From NCBI GenBank assembly GCA_017303715.1, contig JAFLBZ010000004.1, forward strand, positions 130,887 through 194,886: 64,000 nt of DNA, in the 5' to 3' direction. This DNA comes from Rhodothermia bacterium. Its GTDB lineage: Bacteria; Bacteroidota; Rhodothermia; Rhodothermales; UBA2364. Positions within the stretch are counted from its first letter, which is position 1; every line of letters begins with the position of its first letter. Under the pieces are notes generated by a model, which worked only from the letters and a program-made list of their open reading frames with translations, searched no databases and had not been told where the DNA came from. A program made the translations under genes and the position numbers. This document shows positions 21,473 through 32,100 of this stretch, piece by piece.

Positions 21473-22096
21473 ATGCCTAAGTTGGACAAAATATATCTAC
21501 TTAGAATGACCCATATTGAAAATATACCTCATATTATTCAGTGTGGCATTACGCATTCTACTTCTACCAACGCAAATCCTAATTTCAAACCAATTGGGGA
21601 CAATAGCTTAATTTCAACACGAAATAATTACACATTAGATAACGGGAAATTATTGGGGGAGTATATTCCGTTTTATTTTGGTGTACGAACACCTATGTTG
21701 TATGTCGTACAAAATGGGTTCAATATGGTTGCCCCGACACGAGCAGAAGATATTGTGTATTGTGTTAGTTCCATTCAAAAAATAATCGACTTGAATTTAG
21801 ACTTCGTTTTTACTGATGGACACGCAGTTGATAGTTTTAGTTCTCAGTACACAAAGGAAGATATCCAAAATATTGATCGTTTAATAGACAAAAATGCCAT
21901 CAACGCCAAATATTGGAAAGACGAAAATGACCTTGATTTAAAGCGTAGAAAAGAGGCAGAGTTTTTGGTCTTAGGAGATATTGCAACTGACGGAGTTTTA
22001 GGTTATGTTACCTACAACGAAAATGCAAAAAAACGGCTCATTGACTTTGGAGCAGATGCTTCCAAAGTAGTTGTTAAACCCGAATATTATTTTTAA
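21473..22096 (+). CDS. darT: DarT-like toxin: DNA thymidine ADP-ribosyltransferase
   Basis: 207 aa, normal DarT (formerly DUF4433) length. Family landmarks: IYLLRMTHIENIPHIIQCGI at the N terminus; an Arg at residue 50 in SLISTRNNY; YIPFYFGVRTPMLYVV (the PFYF block); and the catalytic Glu163 in RRKEAEFLVLGDI near the NAD site. Known DarT enzymes ADP-ribosylate thymidine in single-stranded DNA and block replication; DarTG systems abort phage infection. The antitoxin gene follows after three bases. DNA here is AT-rich compared with flanking housekeeping genes, consistent with acquisition. Confidence 0.93.
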   Translation: MPKLDKIYLLRMTHIENIPHIIQCGITHSTSTNANPNFKPIGDNSLISTRNNYTLDNGKLLGEYIPFYFGVRTPMLYVVQNGFNMVAPTRAEDIVYCVSSIQKIIDLNLDFVFTDGHAVDSFSSQYTKEDIQNIDRLIDKNAINAKYWKDENDLDLKRRKEAEFLVLGDIATDGVLGYVTYNENAKKRLIDFGADASKVVVKPEYYF

Positions 22097-22099
22097 ATT

Positions 22100-23134
22100 A
22101 TGATACATTACAAAATAGGCAACTTATTGGAAAGCGAAGCAGATGCTTTGGTAAATACGGTGAATACCGTTGGGGTAATGGGTAAAGGCATTGCGTTGCA
22201 ATTTAAAAATATGTTTCCCAATAACTTCAAACAATATGCTGATGCTTGCAAAAACAAAGAATTAGCTATTGGACAGTTATTAGTTACAGAAGAAAAATCA
22301 CTGTTATTAGGAAAAAAAATTATTATCAACTTCCCTACTAAAACTAATTGGCGATTGCCCTCTGAATATGAATATATTGAAGTGGGACTCGTGGAACTCG
22401 TAAATATTATCAAAGAAAAAAATATAAAGTCAATAGCCATTCCACCACTTGGTGCAGGAAATGGGGGTTTAAATTGGAACAAAGTGAAACAGATTTTGGA
22501 AAAATATTTGACAGATATTGACTGCGATATCTATATCTACGAGCCAAATATCGCCATACAAGAAGTTATAAAAAAGGAAAGAGTGAAATTAACACCAGCA
22601 AGGGCAATGCTTCTTTCTGTGTTGTATGATTTAGTTCGTAATGGTGAATTTGCATCAGAGTTTGCCTCAGAAAAAATTGCTTATTTCCTACAAAGATTTG
22701 GTGCAAAAGATATTTTTAAATTAGAATTTCAACCAAATTTTTATGGGCCATATTCAGGAAAAGTAAAACATGTTTTGTATTATTTGAATGGAAGCTATAT
22801 AAAGGGGTATAGTTCAAAAGATAAAAAACCTTTTGAAGAATTAGAATTAATTCCTGATGCTGAAATAGAAGTAAACCATTTTTTAAGTAAACCTGAAAAT
22901 GAAAAATATAAAAATATTGTAGAAAAAACCAAATTGTTTTTAGCAGGATTTTATTCATCATTTGCGTTAGAATTAATTTCAACTGTAGATTTTATTATTT
23001 CGGAAAAGAATGCCAATACAGAAGAAAAGATTATCAAAGAATTAGAAAGTTGGAGTGACCGAAAGAAAACATTATTTACCAACCAAAAATATATTAAAAT
23101 AGCATTGAATAACTTAAATTTACATCTAAACTAG
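22100..23134 (+). CDS. darG: DarG-like antitoxin: macro-domain DNA ADP-ribosylglycohydrolase with C-terminal toxin-binding domain
   Basis: 344 aa. The macro domain spans about 1-155: IHYKIGNLLESEADALVNTVNTVGVMGKGIALQFK with the catalytic-site NTVNxxGxMGKGIA pattern, and SIAIPPLGAGNGGLNW for the ribose-binding glycine loop. The C-terminal region (about 165-344, RVKLTPARAMLLSVLYDLV onward) matches the DarG domain known to sequester DarT. The enzyme removes ADP-ribose from DNA thymidines and neutralises the toxin. Three bases separate it from darT, ensuring coupled expression. Composition is strongly AT-rich. Confidence 0.93.
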   Translation: MIHYKIGNLLESEADALVNTVNTVGVMGKGIALQFKNMFPNNFKQYADACKNKELAIGQLLVTEEKSLLLGKKIIINFPTKTNWRLPSEYEYIEVGLVELVNIIKEKNIKSIAIPPLGAGNGGLNWNKVKQILEKYLTDIDCDIYIYEPNIAIQEVIKKERVKLTPARAMLLSVLYDLVRNGEFASEFASEKIAYFLQRFGAKDIFKLEFQPNFYGPYSGKVKHVLYYLNGSYIKGYSSKDKKPFEELELIPDAEIEVNHFLSKPENEKYKNIVEKTKLFLAGFYSSFALELISTVDFIISEKNANTEEKIIKELESWSDRKKTLFTNQKYIKIALNNLNLHLN

Positions 23135-24541: not shown

Positions 24542-26143
24542 ATGAGCGATAATTTAGCATTAGAAAAAACCCTTTGGCAAGCAGCCGACAAACTCCGCAA
24601 CAACATGGATGCGGCAGAGTACAAACATGTTGTGTTGGGCTTGATTTTCTTGAAATATATTTCAGATGCTTTTGATGAACTCTATCAACAATTAGACGCA
24701 AACAAAAACGAAACAGGCGCCGACCCGGAAGACAAAGACGAATTCACTGCCGAAAGAGTATTCTACGTGCCACCGCAAGCTCGTTGGAAATGGCTACAAG
24801 GCAGAGCGAAACTACCAACTATCGGCAAGGACATTGACGATGCAATGGATAGTCTTGAACGAGACAATGCGTCTTTAAAAGGCGTTTTGCCAAAAGACTA
24901 CGCCCGGCCTGCACTCGACAAACAACGACTCGGTGAACTCATTGACCTGATTGGCTCAATCACCTTAAGCAAAGGCGGAGACGGGAAAGGCAAAGACGTT
25001 TTGGGATTTGTGTTTGAGTATTTCTTGGGGCAGTTCGCAGATGCTGAAGGCAAAAAAGGCGGACAATTTTATACCCCTGCCAGCATTGTAAAACTCTTGG
25101 TGGAAATGCTTGCCCCCGAAGCCGAAAAACGGGTGTATGACGGCTGTTGCGGAAGTGGTGGCATGTTTGTGCAAAGCGAAAAATTCATAGAACTGCACGA
25201 ACACCGCAAAGGCAAGATTTCCATTTTCGGACAAGAAAGCAATCCGACCACTTACAAGTTGGCAAAAATGAACCTCGCTATCCGTGGCATTGATGCCAAA
25301 ATAGAGTTAGGCGACACTTTAATGAACGACAAGTTCCCTGAACTGAAAGTAGATTACATCATTGCCAATCCGCCTTTCAACATCAGCGATTACAACATCA
25401 ATAAAGCCGAAACCCATAAATGGAAATATGGCGTTCCGCCAACGGGAAACGCCAACTATGCTTGGCTGCAACACTTTGTGAGCAAACTTGCACCTTTCGG
25501 AACGGCAGGAATTGTTTTGGCAAACGGCAGTATGAGTTCTGAAATAGCCACCGAAGGTGAAATCAGAAAAGCCATGATTGAAGCCGACTTGGTGGATTGT
25601 ATGGTGTCGCTGCCTTCGCAGTTGTTTTACAATACCCAAATTCCCGCTTGTTTGTGGTTTTTGGCTCGCAACAAAACCGAAACCACCAAATTCCGAAACC
25701 GAACCAACGAAGTACTTTTTATTGATGCTCGTGAATTTGGCTCAATGATTAGCCGAAAACAAAAGGAACTGAGTGATGAAGACATTGCCAAAATTTCAGA
25801 CACTTACCACCGATGGAGAAAATGTCTGAACCTTGATTCACTTGATAAAAATGATTTAAAAAGGGATAAATCAAGCCAATTATTTAATCAAAAAGATCAT
25901 ATTTCAGACTATTTTGACATTCCCGGCTTCTGCAAATCTGCCACTATCGAAGACATCCGCAAAAACAATTACATCCTGACCCCTGGGCGATACATTGACT
26001 TTAAAGAAGTGGAAGAAGACGGACAAGCATTTGAGGAGAAAATGCAGATGCTCACTTCTACTCTTTCAGAGCAAATGAAAAAAGCAAACGAGTTGGATGA
26101 AGCGATAAAAGTGAATCTTAAAAAAATCGGATTTGAACTATGA
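24542..26143 (+). CDS. hsdM: Type I restriction-modification DNA methyltransferase subunit
   Basis: 533-aa N6-adenine methyltransferase. The N-terminal HsdM helical domain ([20 protein letters not shown] and [18 protein letters not shown]) is followed by the S-adenosylmethionine motif [12 protein letters not shown] (about 197-208), the [20 protein letters not shown] block, and the adenine-methylation motif [13 protein letters not shown] (about 273-285). Methylates the host recognition sequence with HsdS, and forms the restriction complex with HsdR. The C-terminal coiled region (about 470-533) probably contacts HsdS. Its stop overlaps the next ATG by four bases, so it is translationally coupled to the HepT-like gene. 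Confidence 0.95.
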
Positions 26144-26556
26144 GCGAACACGACATCAGGTGGCAGCAACGCTTCGATAATTTCTTAAAAGCCTTTGCCC
26201 TTTTGGAAAAAGCGGTTTTGCAGCACCAAGAAAGCGGGCTTTCGGAGTTGGAAGAACAAGGGCTTATTCAACGCTTTGAATTTACCCACGAACTGGCTTG
26301 GAACGTACTCAAAGATTACTTTGAATATCAGGGCAACACAAATATTACCGGCTCAAGAGATGCCACACGCGAAGCTTTTAACAAAGGGCTTATTGAGGAT
26401 GGCGAAGGCTGGATGGAAATGATAAAAAGCCGCAACAAATCATCACACACCTACAATGAAGACACCGCAAAAGAAGTCGTTCAACATGTCACCGAATGGT
26501 ACTACGATTTGTTTGTGGCGTTTAAAGCGAAAATGACTTCCCTAAAACTTCCATAA
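26140..26556 (+). CDS. HepT-like HEPN protein (nucleotidyltransferase substrate-binding family, HI0074-like)
   Basis: 138 aa, all-helical. Features of the HI0074/HepT group are [19 protein letters not shown] near the N terminus, [20 protein letters not shown], and the HEPN ribonuclease-type motif RNKSSHTY (R-x4-H-x-Y, about 106-113). Family knowledge: HepT is a HEPN RNase toxin silenced when the partner MNT nucleotidyltransferase AMPylates it next to this motif. The partner domain here is the N-terminal part of the next protein, which is fused to HsdS. The ATG overlaps the hsdM stop, so this toxin-like gene is built into the restriction operon. Confidence 0.87.
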
Positions 26557-26559
26557 ACC

Positions 26560-28185
26560 ATGTTCGGACTGCAGCAAAAACATATAGATGCGATCAACGC
26601 CTGCTTTGCCCAATACCCACAAATTGAGCAGGTGATACTTTATGGCTCACGGGCAAAAGGCAATTACAAAAACGGCTCCGACATAGACCTGACCATAGTG
26701 GGGGATTTGGACTACAATAGCTTGCTGAAATTAGAAAATCAATTGGACGACCTGCTCCTGCCCTATAAAATGGATCTCTCGCTAAAACATAAAATTACCA
26801 ACCCGGATTTGTTGAATCATATTGAGCGGGTGGGGAAGGTGTTTTATGAGAAGGCAATCGAAAAGGTGTTAAGCAAGCCTGATGCAGCGTATGGAAAACC
26901 AAGCGAGTGGAAAACATATAAGTTGGGGGAATTGATACACTTAGTTGGGGGTGGGACACCAAAAACTACTGTTCCAGAATATTGGAATGGAGAAATTCCG
27001 TGGCTTTCTGTTGTTGATTTCGGAAAAGGACTTAAAAAAGTTTACCAAACCGAAAAATCCATAACCGAAAAAGGGCTTAATGAAAGCAGCACTAAAATTT
27101 TGAAGGAAGGACAAATCATTATTTCTGCCCGTGGAACTGTTGGAGAATTAGCAGTCTTAGGCAGAGATATGGCATTTAACCAATCGTGTTATGGTATTTA
27201 TGCCAATGAAAAAACAGAGAACAATTTTCTTTACTATCTTCTTAAATACAGCATTGTCAAGATTAAGAAAAACACCCACGGGGCTGTGTTCGATACAATC
27301 ACAAAACAAACTTTTGACAATATAGAAGTTTCAATCCCTGAGAGTAAAGAAACCCAAAACCAAATCGCCGCCATCCTCTCCTCCCTCGACGACAAAATAG
27401 CACTCAACCTACAAATGAACCAAACGTTGGAAGCCATGGCTCAGGCCATTTTCAAGGAGTGGTTTGTCAATCTCAACTTCCCCAAAAGTCTGAACCTTGA
27501 TTCATTTGATTTGCCTGATTTACATGATTTAAAGAATCAGGACAATCAAGAAAACCCCAAAAATCACAGTTCAGACAATGGACTGCCGAAGGGGTGGAGA
27601 ATGGGTCCCATTAGAGAATTAATAGATGTGCAAAATGGTTACGCTTTCAAAAGCGGTGATTTTCTTGAAAAAGGCAATAATGGTGTAATAAAAATTAAAA
27701 ACATTTCTAATAATGTAGTTGACATAGTCAATATGCAATTCGTTTCTGATGAAGTTGCTAAAAGCATCGGCAGTCGCTTCAAGGTCAAAAGTGCCGATTT
27801 ACTTATTGCAATGACTGGTGCAGAAGTTGGTAAAGTTGGCATTGTGCCAAACACTGAAAAGAAACTTTGGTTAAATCAGCGAGTAGGCTCTTTTAAGGAA
27901 AAAATTAATTACGCAAAGTGGTTTGTTTATTTGATACTTTCTACAAAAGAATATCAAAACGTATTACTGAGTTCTGCAAGCGGAAGTGCACAGCCAAATA
28001 TTAGTGCAGCACAAATTGAAAGTGTAGAGACATTAATCCCAACTCACAATTTCATTGAAAATTTCGGAGAAATTGTGAACCCAATATTTGAAAAGATTTT
28101 AGATAATTTCAAACAAAACGAAGTTTTAACCCAACTCCGCGACACCCTTCTCCCCAAGTTAATGAGCGGACAAATTAAACTTTAA
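26560..28185 (+). CDS. hsdS: Fusion of MNT-type nucleotidyltransferase with type I specificity subunit HsdS
   Basis: 541 aa in one uninterrupted frame. Residues 1-100 are a minimal nucleotidyltransferase: VILYGSRAKGNYKNGSDIDL (G-S-x-A-x-G ... S-D-x-D-L, about 25-44). Residues about 115-541 are HsdS: TRD1 (EWKTYKLGELIHLVGGGTPK), a central conserved helix (QIAAILSSLDDKIALNLQMNQ), TRD2 (GWRMGPIRELIDVQNGYAFK) and the distal helix (NEVLTQLRDTLLPKLMSGQI). No Met lies between the end of the MNT domain and the first TRD, so a separate internal HsdS start is unlikely. Combined with the upstream HEPN gene, this puts an MNT/HEPN toxin-antitoxin pair inside the specificity subunit. Confidence 0.9.
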   Translation: MFGLQQKHIDAINACFAQYPQIEQVILYGSRAKGNYKNGSDIDLTIVGDLDYNSLLKLENQLDDLLLPYKMDLSLKHKITNPDLLNHIERVGKVFYEKAIEKVLSKPDAAYGKPSEWKTYKLGELIHLVGGGTPKTTVPEYWNGEIPWLSVVDFGKGLKKVYQTEKSITEKGLNESSTKILKEGQIIISARGTVGELAVLGRDMAFNQSCYGIYANEKTENNFLYYLLKYSIVKIKKNTHGAVFDTITKQTFDNIEVSIPESKETQNQIAAILSSLDDKIALNLQMNQTLEAMAQAIFKEWFVNLNFPKSLNLDSFDLPDLHDLKNQDNQENPKNHSSDNGLPKGWRMGPIRELIDVQNGYAFKSGDFLEKGNNGVIKIKNISNNVVDIVNMQFVSDEVAKSIGSRFKVKSADLLIAMTGAEVGKVGIVPNTEKKLWLNQRVGSFKEKINYAKWFVYLILSTKEYQNVLLSSASGSAQPNISAAQIESVETLIPTHNFIENFGEIVNPIFEKILDNFKQNEVLTQLRDTLLPKLMSGQIKL

Positions 28186-28190
28186 AGGCT

Positions 28191-29141
28191 ATGATAAACA
28201 CCATTGAAATTTTTGAAGCGGACAACCGCCAGATTGAAGTTAGGATGTCGTCGGACACCGTATGGTTGACGCAAGCTCAGATGTCGGCTTTATTTGAGCG
28301 AGACCAGTCCGTCATTTCCCGACACATTCGGAATGTGTTTGCAGAGGGCGAATTGGAAGAAAAAAGCAATATGCAAAATTTGCATATTGCAAATTCCGAC
28401 AAGCCCGTAGCGTTTTACAACCTCGACGTCATCATCTCTGTCGGTTACCGCGTGAAATCGCAGCGCGGCACCCAGTTCCGCCAATGGGCTACGCAGCGGC
28501 TCAAAGACTACTTGGTGCAGGGCTACGCCCTCAACCAAAAACGCCTTGAGGAATTGGGCAAAATGGTGCAGCTCATTGAGCAGTCGGGCGGCAGCGCAAG
28601 CCTCCAACTTGGCGAGGCCAAGGGGTTACTGGAGATTTTGAGCGGCTACACCCGCAGTTTTGTGCTGCTCAATCAGTACGACAGCCATAACCTGCCCTCA
28701 GCGCCTTTTAACCCCAATGTTACCTACGAAATAGCGTACGACGAGGCCAGTACCGCCATTGCCGAACTCAAAAAGCAACTCATCGCCAAAAAAGAAGCCA
28801 CCGAACTGTTCGGCAACGAAAAAGACGACAGTTTTTCAGGCATTTTGGGCAATATTGTACAAACCTTTGGCGGGCAATATCTTTACCCCAGCATAGAGGA
28901 GCAAGCCGCCCATCTGCTCTACTTTGTCATCAAAAACCACCCGTTCACCGACGGCAATAAGCGGATCGGCGCGTTCCTTTTTGTCTGGTTTTTGGAAAAA
29001 AACAAACACGCCCTGAAACCCTCGGGCGAACTTAAAATCAACGACAACGCCCTGACTGCTCTGGCGCTGCTCGTAGCCCAAAGCGATCCCGCCGAAAAAG
29101 AACTGATGATCCGATTAGTCTGCAACCTTATCAATGCGTAA
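28191..29141 (+). CDS. RhuM-Fic fusion protein
   Basis: 316 aa. N-terminal RhuM domain (about 1-115): VWLTQAQMSALFERDQSVIS and KPVAFYNLDVIISVGYRVKS, followed by FRQWATQRLKDYLVQGYALN. C-terminal Fic/Doc domain (about 140-316) with active-site motif HPFTDGNKRIGAFLF, the HPFxxGNxRxG signature in the K-containing Doc-like form. Fic proteins transfer AMP or another nucleotide moiety to proteins, or phosphorylate them in Doc. RhuM-Fic genes often sit inside type I restriction operons. It begins six bases after hsdS and ends immediately before the hsdR ATG. Target unknown. Confidence 0.9.
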   Translation: MINTIEIFEADNRQIEVRMSSDTVWLTQAQMSALFERDQSVISRHIRNVFAEGELEEKSNMQNLHIANSDKPVAFYNLDVIISVGYRVKSQRGTQFRQWATQRLKDYLVQGYALNQKRLEELGKMVQLIEQSGGSASLQLGEAKGLLEILSGYTRSFVLLNQYDSHNLPSAPFNPNVTYEIAYDEASTAIAELKKQLIAKKEATELFGNEKDDSFSGILGNIVQTFGGQYLYPSIEEQAAHLLYFVIKNHPFTDGNKRIGAFLFVWFLEKNKHALKPSGELKINDNALTALALLVAQSDPAEKELMIRLVCNLINA

Positions 29142-32100
29142 ATGAGAAACAGCATCACCGAAAACGAAATAGAAGATATTGCCCTTTCCTACTTGCAGGA
29201 CTTGGGATATTCCGCCCTATTGGGCACGGTGATTTCACCAGATGGTGAGCACCCCGAAAGGCAATACAACGAAGTGGTGTTGCTTACCCGTCTGCGTGAT
29301 GCCATAGACAAACTCAATCCCACCCTTTCGCAAGATGCCAAAGAAGATGCCCTGAAAAAAGTATTGCGTACCGAAAGCCCCAATGCCTTAATCAACAATG
29401 AAAACTTTCACCGCTACCTGACCGATGGCGTAGATGTGGAAGTAAGAACCGATAGCGGCATTCGTGGCGAGAAAATTTATATCGTTGATTTTGAAAATCC
29501 TGAAAACAACGAGTTTTTAGCCATCAACCAGTTTACGGTGGTGGAAGGCAACCAAAACAAACGCCCCGATATTATCCTATTTGTCAACGGCTTGCCTTTG
29601 GTGGTGATAGAACTCAAAAATGCGGTGGACGAAAACGCCAACCTGAAATCGGCATTCAACCAACTGCAAACCTACAAACAAGCCATTCCTTCGCTGTTCA
29701 CTTACAACAGTTTGCTCATCATCAGCGATGGGTGGGATGCCCGTTGTGGCACCGTCACCAGCGATTTCGGTAGGTTCATGACGTGGAAGACTCCGCCCTC
29801 AACCCCAACCCTTCTCCCACGGGGAGAAGGGAGCAGCTATCGTGGAAATCTTAAATATTCAGGGTTAATCGAAGAAGCCCGTGAATTAAGGAAAAAGCAA
29901 ACCAAAGCAGAAGAAATCTTTTGGCAATTGGTACGCAATAGAAAATTCAATAATCTCAAATTCAGAAGACAGCACCAGATTGGAAATTATATTGCGGATT
30001 TTTATTGCGATGAGTATAGGTTAGTGATTGAATTTGATGGTGAAATTCACAATTCAACAGAACAACAAAAACACGATAGTAAAAGAGATAAATTCTTGAG
30101 CAGTTCAGGGTTTAAGGTGATTAGATTTAAGAATGAAGAATTGCTAAACGCTCCAGATTCAGTTTTTGAAAAAATCGATAGGGCAATTTTAGGTAATTCA
30201 CAAAAAGTCAATAGCTCCTCTCCCACTGGGAGAAGCGGGGGTGAGGGATTACTTGAAATGGAAGTGATGTTTCACGGAATGTTGAACAAACACACACTAT
30301 TGGATTTAATCCGTCAGTTTATTGTCTTTGAAAAAACAGGTAGTGATGTTGCATGCAGCGTTTCTAAAAAGATAGCCGCCTATCATCAATATTATGCAGT
30401 AAATAAAGCCGTAGAAAGCACCGTAACCGCCAGCGGGCGCCATGGCGACAGGCGTGGCGGTGTCATCTGGCACACACAGGGCAGCGGCAAAAGTTTGAGT
30501 ATGGTTTTCTTTTCCGGCAAGCTCATCATTGAACCGAGAATGGAAAACCCCACCTTGGTTATCCTGACCGACCGTAACGATTTGGACGAGCAACTGCACG
30601 AAACCTTTACCAATTGCCAGCAACTTTTAAGGCAAGAACCCCAAAAAGCCGAAGACCGAAAAGATTTAAGAAAATTACTGAAAGTGGCATCAGGTGGCAT
30701 TGTGTTTACTACCATCCAGAAGTTTATGCCCGTTAGGGCTGACCTGCATATCAGCCCTGATGACAATGTGCTAAACGAACCGGCAGTAGAATACATCGGT
30801 GCAGATATACAAGCATTGAGCGAACGCAAAAACATTGTAGTTATTGCAGATGAAGCCCACAGAAGCCAATATGATTTCATAGATGGCTTTGCCAAACATT
30901 TGCGCGATGCACTGCCCAATGCCACCTTTATAGGCTTCACGGGTACCCCCATTGAAACCACCGACAAAAACACCCAAGCCGTTTTCGGCAACTATGTCGA
31001 TATTTACGACATACAGCAAGCCGTAGAAGATAAAGCCACCGTTCCGATTTTCTATGAAAGCCGTTTGGCCAAAGTACATTTTGCAGACGAGGAGAAAGTA
31101 ACCATAGATGAGCAGTTTGAAGAACTCACAGAGGGCGAAGAATTAAGCAGCCGCCAACAGATGCGTGCAAAATGGACACGCTTGGAAGCGATTGTGGGCA
31201 ACCCCAACCGGCTACAAAAAATTGCCGAAGATTTGATCTATCACTTCGAGCAGCGAAACGCCGTATTGGAAGGTAAAGCCATGATAGTTTGTATGAGCCG
31301 TAGAATTTGCGTTGAACTCTATGATGCCATTATCCGAATTCGTCCGCTTTGGCATTCAGATGATGACGATAAAGGTACTATCAAAGTAATCATGACGGGC
31401 AGCAGCAGCGACGTCCTGAATATGCAATCCCATATTCGCAACAAACCCAGAAGAAAAGCCATAGGCGACCGTTTGAAAAATCCGAACGACCCATTGAAAT
31501 TGGTCATTGTTCGGGATATGTGGCTTACAGGCTTTGATGCCCCTTGTTTGCATACGCTGTATGTGGACAAGCCCATGCGTGGACACAACCTGATGCAAGC
31601 CATAGCACGGGTAAACCGCGTATTTACCGAAGGCAAAGAAGGCGGTTTGGTCGTGGACTATTTAGGTATAGCACAAGAACTGAAAACAGCCTTAGCCGAC
31701 TACACGGCAAGCGGTGGCGAAGGCAAACCCACACTGGATCAGGAATTGGCAGTTGCCAAAATGTTGGAACTGCACGAAGCAATAGACTACCAGTTAAGGC
31801 ATTTTGATTGGCGTAAATTCTTCACACTTACACCCGAAGAAAAACTGAAATTCATTCCTGTCATCGTGGATTACATTTTCAGTCAGGAAAACGGAGAGCA
31901 GAGTTTCACGGAAAACACCAAAAACCTGTTGAAAGCCTTTGCGATTTCCGTTCCCCACGAACGGGCAATGGCCATCCGTGATGATGTGGCCTTGTTCCAA
32001 GCCATCAAATCACGGTTGGTGAAAATATCCGACAGAAACGAAGGCGGTAAAACGGACGAAGAAATGGAAACCGCCATCAAGCAAATCATTTCAGAAGCCA

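Follow-up and report, generated by a model that had tools for sequence, protein, structure and literature searches.

We find a type I restriction operon in which the specificity subunit HsdS is fused at its N-terminus to an MNT nucleotidyltransferase, the antitoxin of HEPN/MNT (type VII) toxin–antitoxin pairs, and in which a gene for a HEPN toxin candidate stands directly in front of the fused gene. The operon lies in a stretch of 64,000 nucleotides from a Rhodothermia bacterium (GenBank assembly GCA_017303715.1, contig JAFLBZ010000004.1, positions 130,887 to 194,886), called the window below. The architecture is secure and it is rare among the genomes searched. The gene order is hsdM, HEPN, MNT-HsdS, RhuM/Fic and hsdR, all on the forward strand and with gaps of at most five bases (Table 1). 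With HsdM, an HsdS with two recognition domains and HsdR matched by Pfam and PADLOC in one operon and on one strand, the restriction system is of type I. The fusion is present once in the window's genome (one match).

We suggest that a type VII pair was captured by the restriction operon as a second line, that MNT-HsdS silences the HEPN protein, and that the arrangement serves to guard the operon or to addict the cell to it. In our judgement this reading hangs evenly in the balance. If it is true, a type VII antitoxin and the specificity subunit of a restriction-modification system would be directly and physically linked, a state apparently reached twice. It is an old question how such systems are protected from loss and anti-restriction, and here it could be tested with one operon and point mutants. 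A literature search, confined to one open-access collection, gave no description of an MNT-HsdS fusion.

An earlier note, made from the letters of the window alone, had described a HEPN gene with the motif RNKSSHTY that overlaps hsdM by four bases, followed by a frame with an MNT active site in its first 100 residues and a complete HsdS with two target recognition domains (TRDs) behind it, with no methionine in between. All of this was verified. The end of hsdM (26143) and the HEPN start (26140) share the bases ATGA, and the motif places R98, H103 and Y105 of the HEPN protein. The fused frame (26560-28185) runs over 541 codons without a stop; it is in the same phase as the HEPN frame, from which it is separated by TAA ACC. 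Polbeta matches residues 12-99 of the protein (4.9e-16) and NTP_transf_2 (PF01909) is found with 1.2e-09, while Methylase_S matches in two stretches (2.8e-45, the best 114-291). The last methionine before the HsdS body is M71, but there is an in-frame GTG at codon 103 (26866-26868).

Table 1. Parts of the type I operon in the window, with the matches on which each assignment rests
Feature	Position	Strand	Evidence
hsdM, type I DNA methyltransferase, 533 aa	24542..26143	+	N6_Mtase 1.2e-106, HsdM_N 3.6e-27
HEPN toxin candidate, HI0074/PF08780 family, 138 aa	26140..26556	+	PF08780 9.5e-46, TIGR01987 1e-28; closest solved structure by sequence, HEPN toxin 8xdj_A, 1.9e-51
MNT nucleotidyltransferase (antitoxin) domain, residues 1-99 of the fused protein	26560..26856	+	Polbeta 4.9e-16; closest solved structure by sequence, MNT 8xeh_E, 2.6e-30
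MNT-HsdS hinge, residues 100-114	26857..26901	+	pLDDT <50 at 100-110; alignment with Met1 of the G132 HsdS
HsdS specificity subunit, two TRDs	26902..28185	+	Methylase_S in two stretches; Foldseek HsdS matches; modelled helices
RhuM-Fic protein, 316 aa, accessory gene between hsdS and hsdR	28191..29141	+	Virulence_RhuM 1.5e-22, Fic 8.5e-13, PADLOC candidate PDC-S23 2.5e-132
hsdR, 1197 aa	29142..32735	+	HSDR_N, SWI2_SNF2, T1RH-like_C
DUF559 domain, in-frame insert in hsdR	29811..30235	+	DUF559 8.1e-36; inverted repeats 29811-29827 / 30219-30235

Families and key residues of the HEPN and MNT parts

The HEPN protein belongs to the PF08780 and TIGR01987/HI0074 families, with a weak HepT-like match besides; against the NCBIfam equivalog HepT_toxin it reaches 17.2 bits, below the cut-off of 60, and the MNT domain reaches 41.0 bits against MntA_antitoxin, also below 60. 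From the titles and dates of the entries we take the closest structures, 8xdj and 8xeh, to be the Legionella pneumophila set of the AMPylating pair (PMC11586414). The phmmer alignment of the HEPN protein to its solved relative is gapless from residue 2 to 136. Thus, the Legionella numbering carries over to the window.

The L. pneumophila HEPN protein is reported as a toxic RNase which requires Q44 and E47, and R98 and H103 of its RX4HXY motif are described as hardly needed for RNase activity. Its Y105 accepts three or four AMPs from the MNT protein and its R73 is the key MNT contact (PMC11586414). In our alignment Q44, E47, R73, R98, H103 and Y105 are invariant in all nine HEPN rows, the three fused loci described below included. 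In the MNT domain the motif GSX10DXD lies at G29-S30 and D41-D43, and these four residues together with D72 are invariant in 10/10 aligned rows, again with all three fused loci. When GSX10DXD was mutated in Legionella, the HEPN protein was reportedly no longer modified (PMC11586414).

HEPN/MNT systems of class I are described as a PF08780 or PF01934 HEPN with a PF01909-type MNT, and PF08780/PF01909 pairs thus fall into this class (PMC7641770). The window has a PF08780 HEPN adjoining a PF01909-type MNT and carries the RX4HXY residues of type VII toxins; a small separate antitoxin, as is usual for type VII, is not found, as the MNT domain is part of the 541-codon frame. The nearest known system is lpg2920/lpg2921 of L. 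pneumophila (type VII, class I, PF08780 type). It has the same HEPN and MNT families, likewise with the HEPN gene first, and its catalytic, acceptor and key contact residues are kept in the window, whereas its antitoxin is a free protein of about 108 aa. HI0074/HI0073 are distant kin. HepT/MntA of Shewanella oneidensis also combines an RX4HXY toxin with a GSX10DXD adenylyltransferase antitoxin (PMC7641770). The window pair differs from it in scoring far below the cut-offs of the respective models, in an MNT domain that leaves no space for a long C-terminal alpha4 helix and in being fused to HsdS. By analogy with the studied relative we infer that the window pair undergoes AMPylation and that its HEPN protein is toxic.

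A quite different role could be imagined for the HEPN protein, namely that of a substrate-binding partner which is not a toxin, the role originally put forward for such pairs, with MNT-HsdS AMPylating for instance HsdM or HsdR and so regulating restriction. The HI0074 family is indeed named 'nucleotidyltransferase substrate-binding subunit', and HEPN domains fused to MNT are described as typically without catalytic residues and most likely inactive (PMC3710099). The window HEPN, however, is a separate protein with both the RNase and the AMP-acceptor residues, and its closest solved structure is a HEPN protein reported as a toxic RNase. We consider this role very improbable.

Recurrence, junction and origin of the fusion

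The same fusion, with different TRDs, stands behind hsdM and a HEPN gene in two other genomes. One is G001 (L047:3451-4917, 488 aa), where the order is hsdM, HEPN, MNT-HsdS, PD-(D/E)XK, an IS200-like transposase and hsdR. The other is HKST-UBA117 (L010:6001-7659, 552 aa), a metagenome-assembled genome of a Bacteroidetes bacterium, with hsdM, HEPN, MNT-HsdS, PD-(D/E)XK and hsdR. The recurrence rules out that an assembly error or frameshift has joined two genes. Together with the 541-codon frame it bears out the claim of the earlier note that the antitoxin domain is physically tied to the specificity subunit in a complete type I operon, and the HEPN gene, which was to be looked for in front of such fusions, precedes them in 3/3 cases.

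The closest operon without HEPN and MNT is that of G132, with 446/510 aligned residues identical in HsdM, 81-88% identity in HsdR and 58% in HsdS. Its HsdS begins with MSEWKKYKLGEI where the window reads KPSEWKTYKLGEL, so that P114 takes the place of Met1. In G001 the HsdS methionine is even retained (M104, SMREWKE against MSEWKE in G327). These two alignments indicate that an MNT with its tail has been joined to the start of HsdS.

Around the junction the TRDs differ. The MNT domains of the window and L010 share 86/100 residues, whereas most 40-residue stretches of their TRDs are about 18-35% identical. The window matches G132 at 80-90% identity in the second TRD and not in the first; for G001 and G327 it is the first TRD (63-85%) and not the second. 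As judged from these comparisons, TRDs have been exchanged around a fixed MNT domain, and the fusion has been kept in the window and L010. Between these two loci the rates of nonsynonymous (dN) and synonymous (dS) substitution are 0.075 and 1.65 for MNT by NG86 (0.073 and 0.76 by YN00), and 0.094 and 1.00 for HsdM (NG86); for HEPN dN is 0.105 and dS is saturated. Such rates indicate purifying selection.

The fused protein was modelled with AlphaFold2 from 14 alignment rows, with a mean pLDDT (predicted local distance difference test) of 77.0 and a pTM (predicted template modelling score) of 0.62. The MNT part forms a domain of its own (10-residue pLDDT blocks of 74-91), and the hinge at 100-110, with a block mean of 43, is probably flexible. 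The HsdS part shows both TRDs and a pair of long helices (residues 263-303 and 496-536); residues 134-177 of the first TRD are largely poorly predicted. In a Foldseek search with the model the HsdS structures 1yf2_A and 7vru_C head the list, and the MNT structure 8xeo_A is matched over about 99 columns (template modelling score TMt 0.91, 56% identity). A pseudo-chain of HEPN and MNT gives two good domains (pLDDT 87.3, pTM 0.61); as its two-residue link forces their placement, we draw nothing from the arrangement.

The junction also bears on a serious rival of the reading as a guard. A self-sufficient pair might have landed in the gap between hsdM and hsdS and the MNT stop codon might then have been lost, giving one protein with two uncoupled jobs which stabilises the operon just as a neighbouring toxin–antitoxin pair would. 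The join of an MNT tail to HsdS Met1 is the simplest possible one, and the model shows little order in the hinge. Possible internal starts are present near the join in all three loci (M104 in G001, M100 in L010 and GTG codon 103 in the window), and the gap collects unrelated defence and toxin-like genes, as described below. Nevertheless we think such an incidental fusion rather unlikely, in part since the window and L010 have kept the fusion while the TRDs changed, in part because of how the pair is distributed and how often it was fused.

To begin with the distribution, we used an MNT query of 112 aa and genome sets which overlap. Matches were found in 7/60 genomes (E <= 1e-3), in 67/394 genomes of the phylum (1e-8) and in 24/244 genomes of the class (1e-12), the window's own included in each, as well as in 31/98 genomes (1e-15) and 17/323 genomes (1e-20). 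Among the matches listed, MNT lies in a long HsdS frame only in the window's genome (G000) and in G001; an exact short-pattern scan of genome contigs gave eight loci, one of them fused (L010). We then viewed 56 loci (L010-L065), which amount to about 47 places, nine of L046-L065 being longer copies of L018-L045. Flanks were mostly about 5 kb on each side for L010-L017 and L046-L065 (some shorter) and about 1.5 kb or less for L018-L045, and within them hsd genes were seen only at L010 and L047, the G001 locus. No hsd genes were found at 12 further loci, four of which repeat earlier places. By eye among the matches listed for the 394 genomes, an MNT match stands beside an hsdM match only in G000 and G001, where the hsdM search scored at most three candidates per genome and listed those with E <= 1e-120.

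Thus, all HEPN-MNT pairs seen inside hsd operons are fused (2/2 in the 394-genome sample, 3/3 with L010), and within that sample no unfused pair was seen in an hsd operon. Outside hsd operons, 48 MNT loci were compared, with identical proteins removed and a few of the loci cut or broken; their frames measure 65-126 aa and none is fused to its neighbour. Both observations argue against an incidental fusion. As not all of the 48 have a co-directional gene behind them, the contrast of fused and free loci is suggestive and not a clean test.

Three candidates for further fusions were rejected. In the 433-aa frame of G160 the MNT ends at a TGA and an unrelated protein of 317 aa follows in the same phase. 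The 389-aa open frame of G020, a GC-rich genome, proved to be a free MNT; the gene that follows is HEPN-like (by eye), and there is no HsdS. The free MNT of L011, which has a tail like the L010 hinge, was considered as a fusion that had lost its HsdS and dropped, since the free MNT of L031 has a similar tail. Outside cellular genomes, MNT matches occur in one phage record and one viral contig (L123), which has HEPN and MNT and no hsd match. Plasmid matches number 87 records, 81 of them from Piscirickettsia; the one examined, from Parabacteroides, is a free pair.

For the origin of the fusion we computed trees from 39 HEPN, 50 MNT, 37 HEPN+MNT and 22 HsdM rows with 200 bootstraps; L046, a long branch, was removed by hand from the HEPN+MNT set, and L016 has no full MNT. 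All four trees require two changes for the three fused loci, which come together as a single group in 0% of each set's 200 bootstrap trees. A single clade is rejected by the approximately unbiased (AU) test for HEPN+MNT (p 0.0018, 40 log units), HsdM (6e-76) and MNT (0.030). From these rejections it appears that capture and fusion probably happened twice, independently, and two apparently independent fusions again speak against an incidental event. A single ancient fusion followed by many losses is possible and needs more events than two origins. The free pair L011 (for HEPN also L016) sits near the window and L010 in the trees. Only the HEPN tree places the free L067 and L068 near G001, and its support there (89/80) does not reach the starred level; in the MNT tree G001 is unplaced. 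The HEPN protein of L126, a locus outside the trees with no hsd match nearby, is 67% identical to that of G001. The hsdM gene of G001 belongs to a seven-member group (100/99), and the other six members have other genes between hsdM and hsdS.

Proposed mechanism

We suggest that guarding of the operon could have arisen and could operate in the following steps. First a class I pair of the PF08780 type would have entered a type I operon at the hsdM-hsdS gap, and the MNT antitoxin would then have become the N-terminal domain of HsdS. HsdS probably needs HsdM for its solubility and probably tolerates additions at its N-terminus. The HEPN protein would be translated right after HsdM, probably coupled to it, and the MNT domain of MNT-HsdS would transfer AMP to Tyr105 of each new HEPN protein and so block its RNase action. 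Because two HsdM subunits hold HsdS, active antitoxin would be available in step with methyltransferase. Once MNT-HsdS is lost, degraded, unassembled or blocked, new HEPN protein would stay unmodified, RNA would be cut and the cell would be arrested. This guard or addiction function would protect the operon and might serve as second-line defence. Here we infer the dependence on HsdM, the coupling to the integrity of the complex, the trigger and the freeing of the toxin when the complex fails. In the Legionella crystal one MNT is bound per HEPN tetramer (PMC11586414), and by analogy such a ratio would suit an M2S complex with its single HsdS. The more general proposal, that an antitoxin has repeatedly been built into the specificity subunit so that methyltransferase assembly licenses RNase silencing and anti-restriction or loss of HsdM or HsdS leads to growth arrest, giving the cell a check on the integrity of its restriction system, we put forward tentatively and with some doubt.

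Several points weigh against the function as a guard. AMPylation is covalent, so that HEPN protein once modified would stay silent, and release of the toxin would need newly made HEPN or a de-AMPylating enzyme; an unknown phosphodiesterase has been suggested for this step (PMC7641770, PMC11586414). Loss of the whole operon would also stop HEPN synthesis, which weakens classical post-segregational killing. The in-frame methionine or GTG codons near the join mean that free HsdS might also be made. In Legionella the Q64A exchange is reported to turn the HEPN protein dimeric, with MNT bound only by the tetramer (PMC11586414); the HEPN protein of G001 has Ala at position 64, and complex formation may therefore differ there. 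Finally, there are only three fused examples, at most two of them independent, and the HEPN tree alone fails to reject a single clade (p 0.081, 29 log units worse).

A precedent is PrrC, an RNase encoded within a type IC locus and activated when the T4 protein Stp inhibits the enzyme (PMC12707154, PMC3710099). Like the window HEPN, PrrC of the EcoprrI operon is an RNase of the HEPN superfamily in a type I operon, where it is a second line. It carries an ABC NTPase domain and lacks an MNT, and it is kept inactive by the enzyme complex and not by AMPylation. By analogy, HEPN or HEPN-MNT could sit on the M2S complex, with the fusion as a sensor and phage anti-restriction proteins that bind HsdM or HsdS as the direct trigger of the RNase. 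The complex of one MNT with four HEPN known from Legionella (PMC11586414) and the several candidate second-line genes found between hsdM and hsdS would be in keeping with this. The Pfam scan, however, finds no ABC NTPase of the PrrC type in the 138-aa HEPN protein, and AMPylated HEPN would not be quickly switched on unless a de-AMPylating enzyme is at hand. We therefore regard a PrrC-like sensor as quite improbable.

Two further systems resemble the operon in part. In the RptR-RMS-DarTG2-M48 island of enteropathogenic Escherichia coli a toxin–antitoxin pair, DarTG2, likewise lies in a type I operon; it is placed between hsdS and hsdR, and the available text of that source describes no fusion to an Hsd subunit (PMC12255303). 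BREX and related loci carry HEPN RNases as backup effectors beside a DNA-modification system, some of them fused to MNT; there, the fusion partner of MNT is HEPN instead of a specificity subunit, and BREX is not a type I system (PMC12839542).

The hsdM-hsdS gap and neighbouring genes

We surveyed the gap between hsdM and hsdS at the 19 best-scoring hsdM loci after G000 and G001 (68/394 genomes matched) and found neither HEPN nor MNT at any of these 19. The genes present are DUF1828/DUF1829 (G132), ORF6N with an unknown and PIN (G296), DUF1016_N/YhcG (G134, G181), YhcG (G275), Fic with an unknown (G369), KilA-N and ASCH (G159), unknowns of 157-158 aa (G075, G318), Bro-N (G327), Schlafen AlbA_2/HATPase (G044) and RhuM (G255); the remaining seven loci have no gene or no clear gene there. 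With such assorted genes in relatives, the gap is an accessory slot. The hsdS-hsdR gap that holds DarTG2 has been described as a potential recombination hotspot for defence systems (PMC12255303), and a search for second-line genes in the hsdM-hsdS gap would be worthwhile. Three genomes have in this gap a protein of 153-158 aa (L115:7891-8364, L118:3166-3636, L113:6096-6554); the three are alike by eye, and none has a Pfam match at 0.001.

In the window a toxin–antitoxin pair of DarT (PF14487, 2e-41) and DarG (PADLOC 2.5e-121) is found at 21473-23134. It lies upstream of hsdM at a distance of about 1.4 kb, and the interval holds a ketopantoate-reductase-like gene. RhuM-like matches are also seen in the hsd operons of G132, G159 and G255.

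The DUF559 domain lies in frame within HsdR in four of the 17 loci in which both halves of HsdR were seen (window, G001, G181 and G159), and is absent from HsdR of the near relatives L010 and L103. The inserts outside the window (L047:6883-7414, L110:5477-6059, L114:8717-9215) and that in the window occupy two different places in HsdR, and each is bracketed by inverted repeats, self-complementary by eye. The insert has the appearance of a mobile cassette that keeps the frame. In G001 we also noted a copy of the HsdS C-terminus between hsdS and hsdR (L047:5392-5475, 28 residues, 86% identical), and G159 has a shorter one (L114:6665-6727, 21 residues, 81%). These short copies are perhaps traces of recombination.

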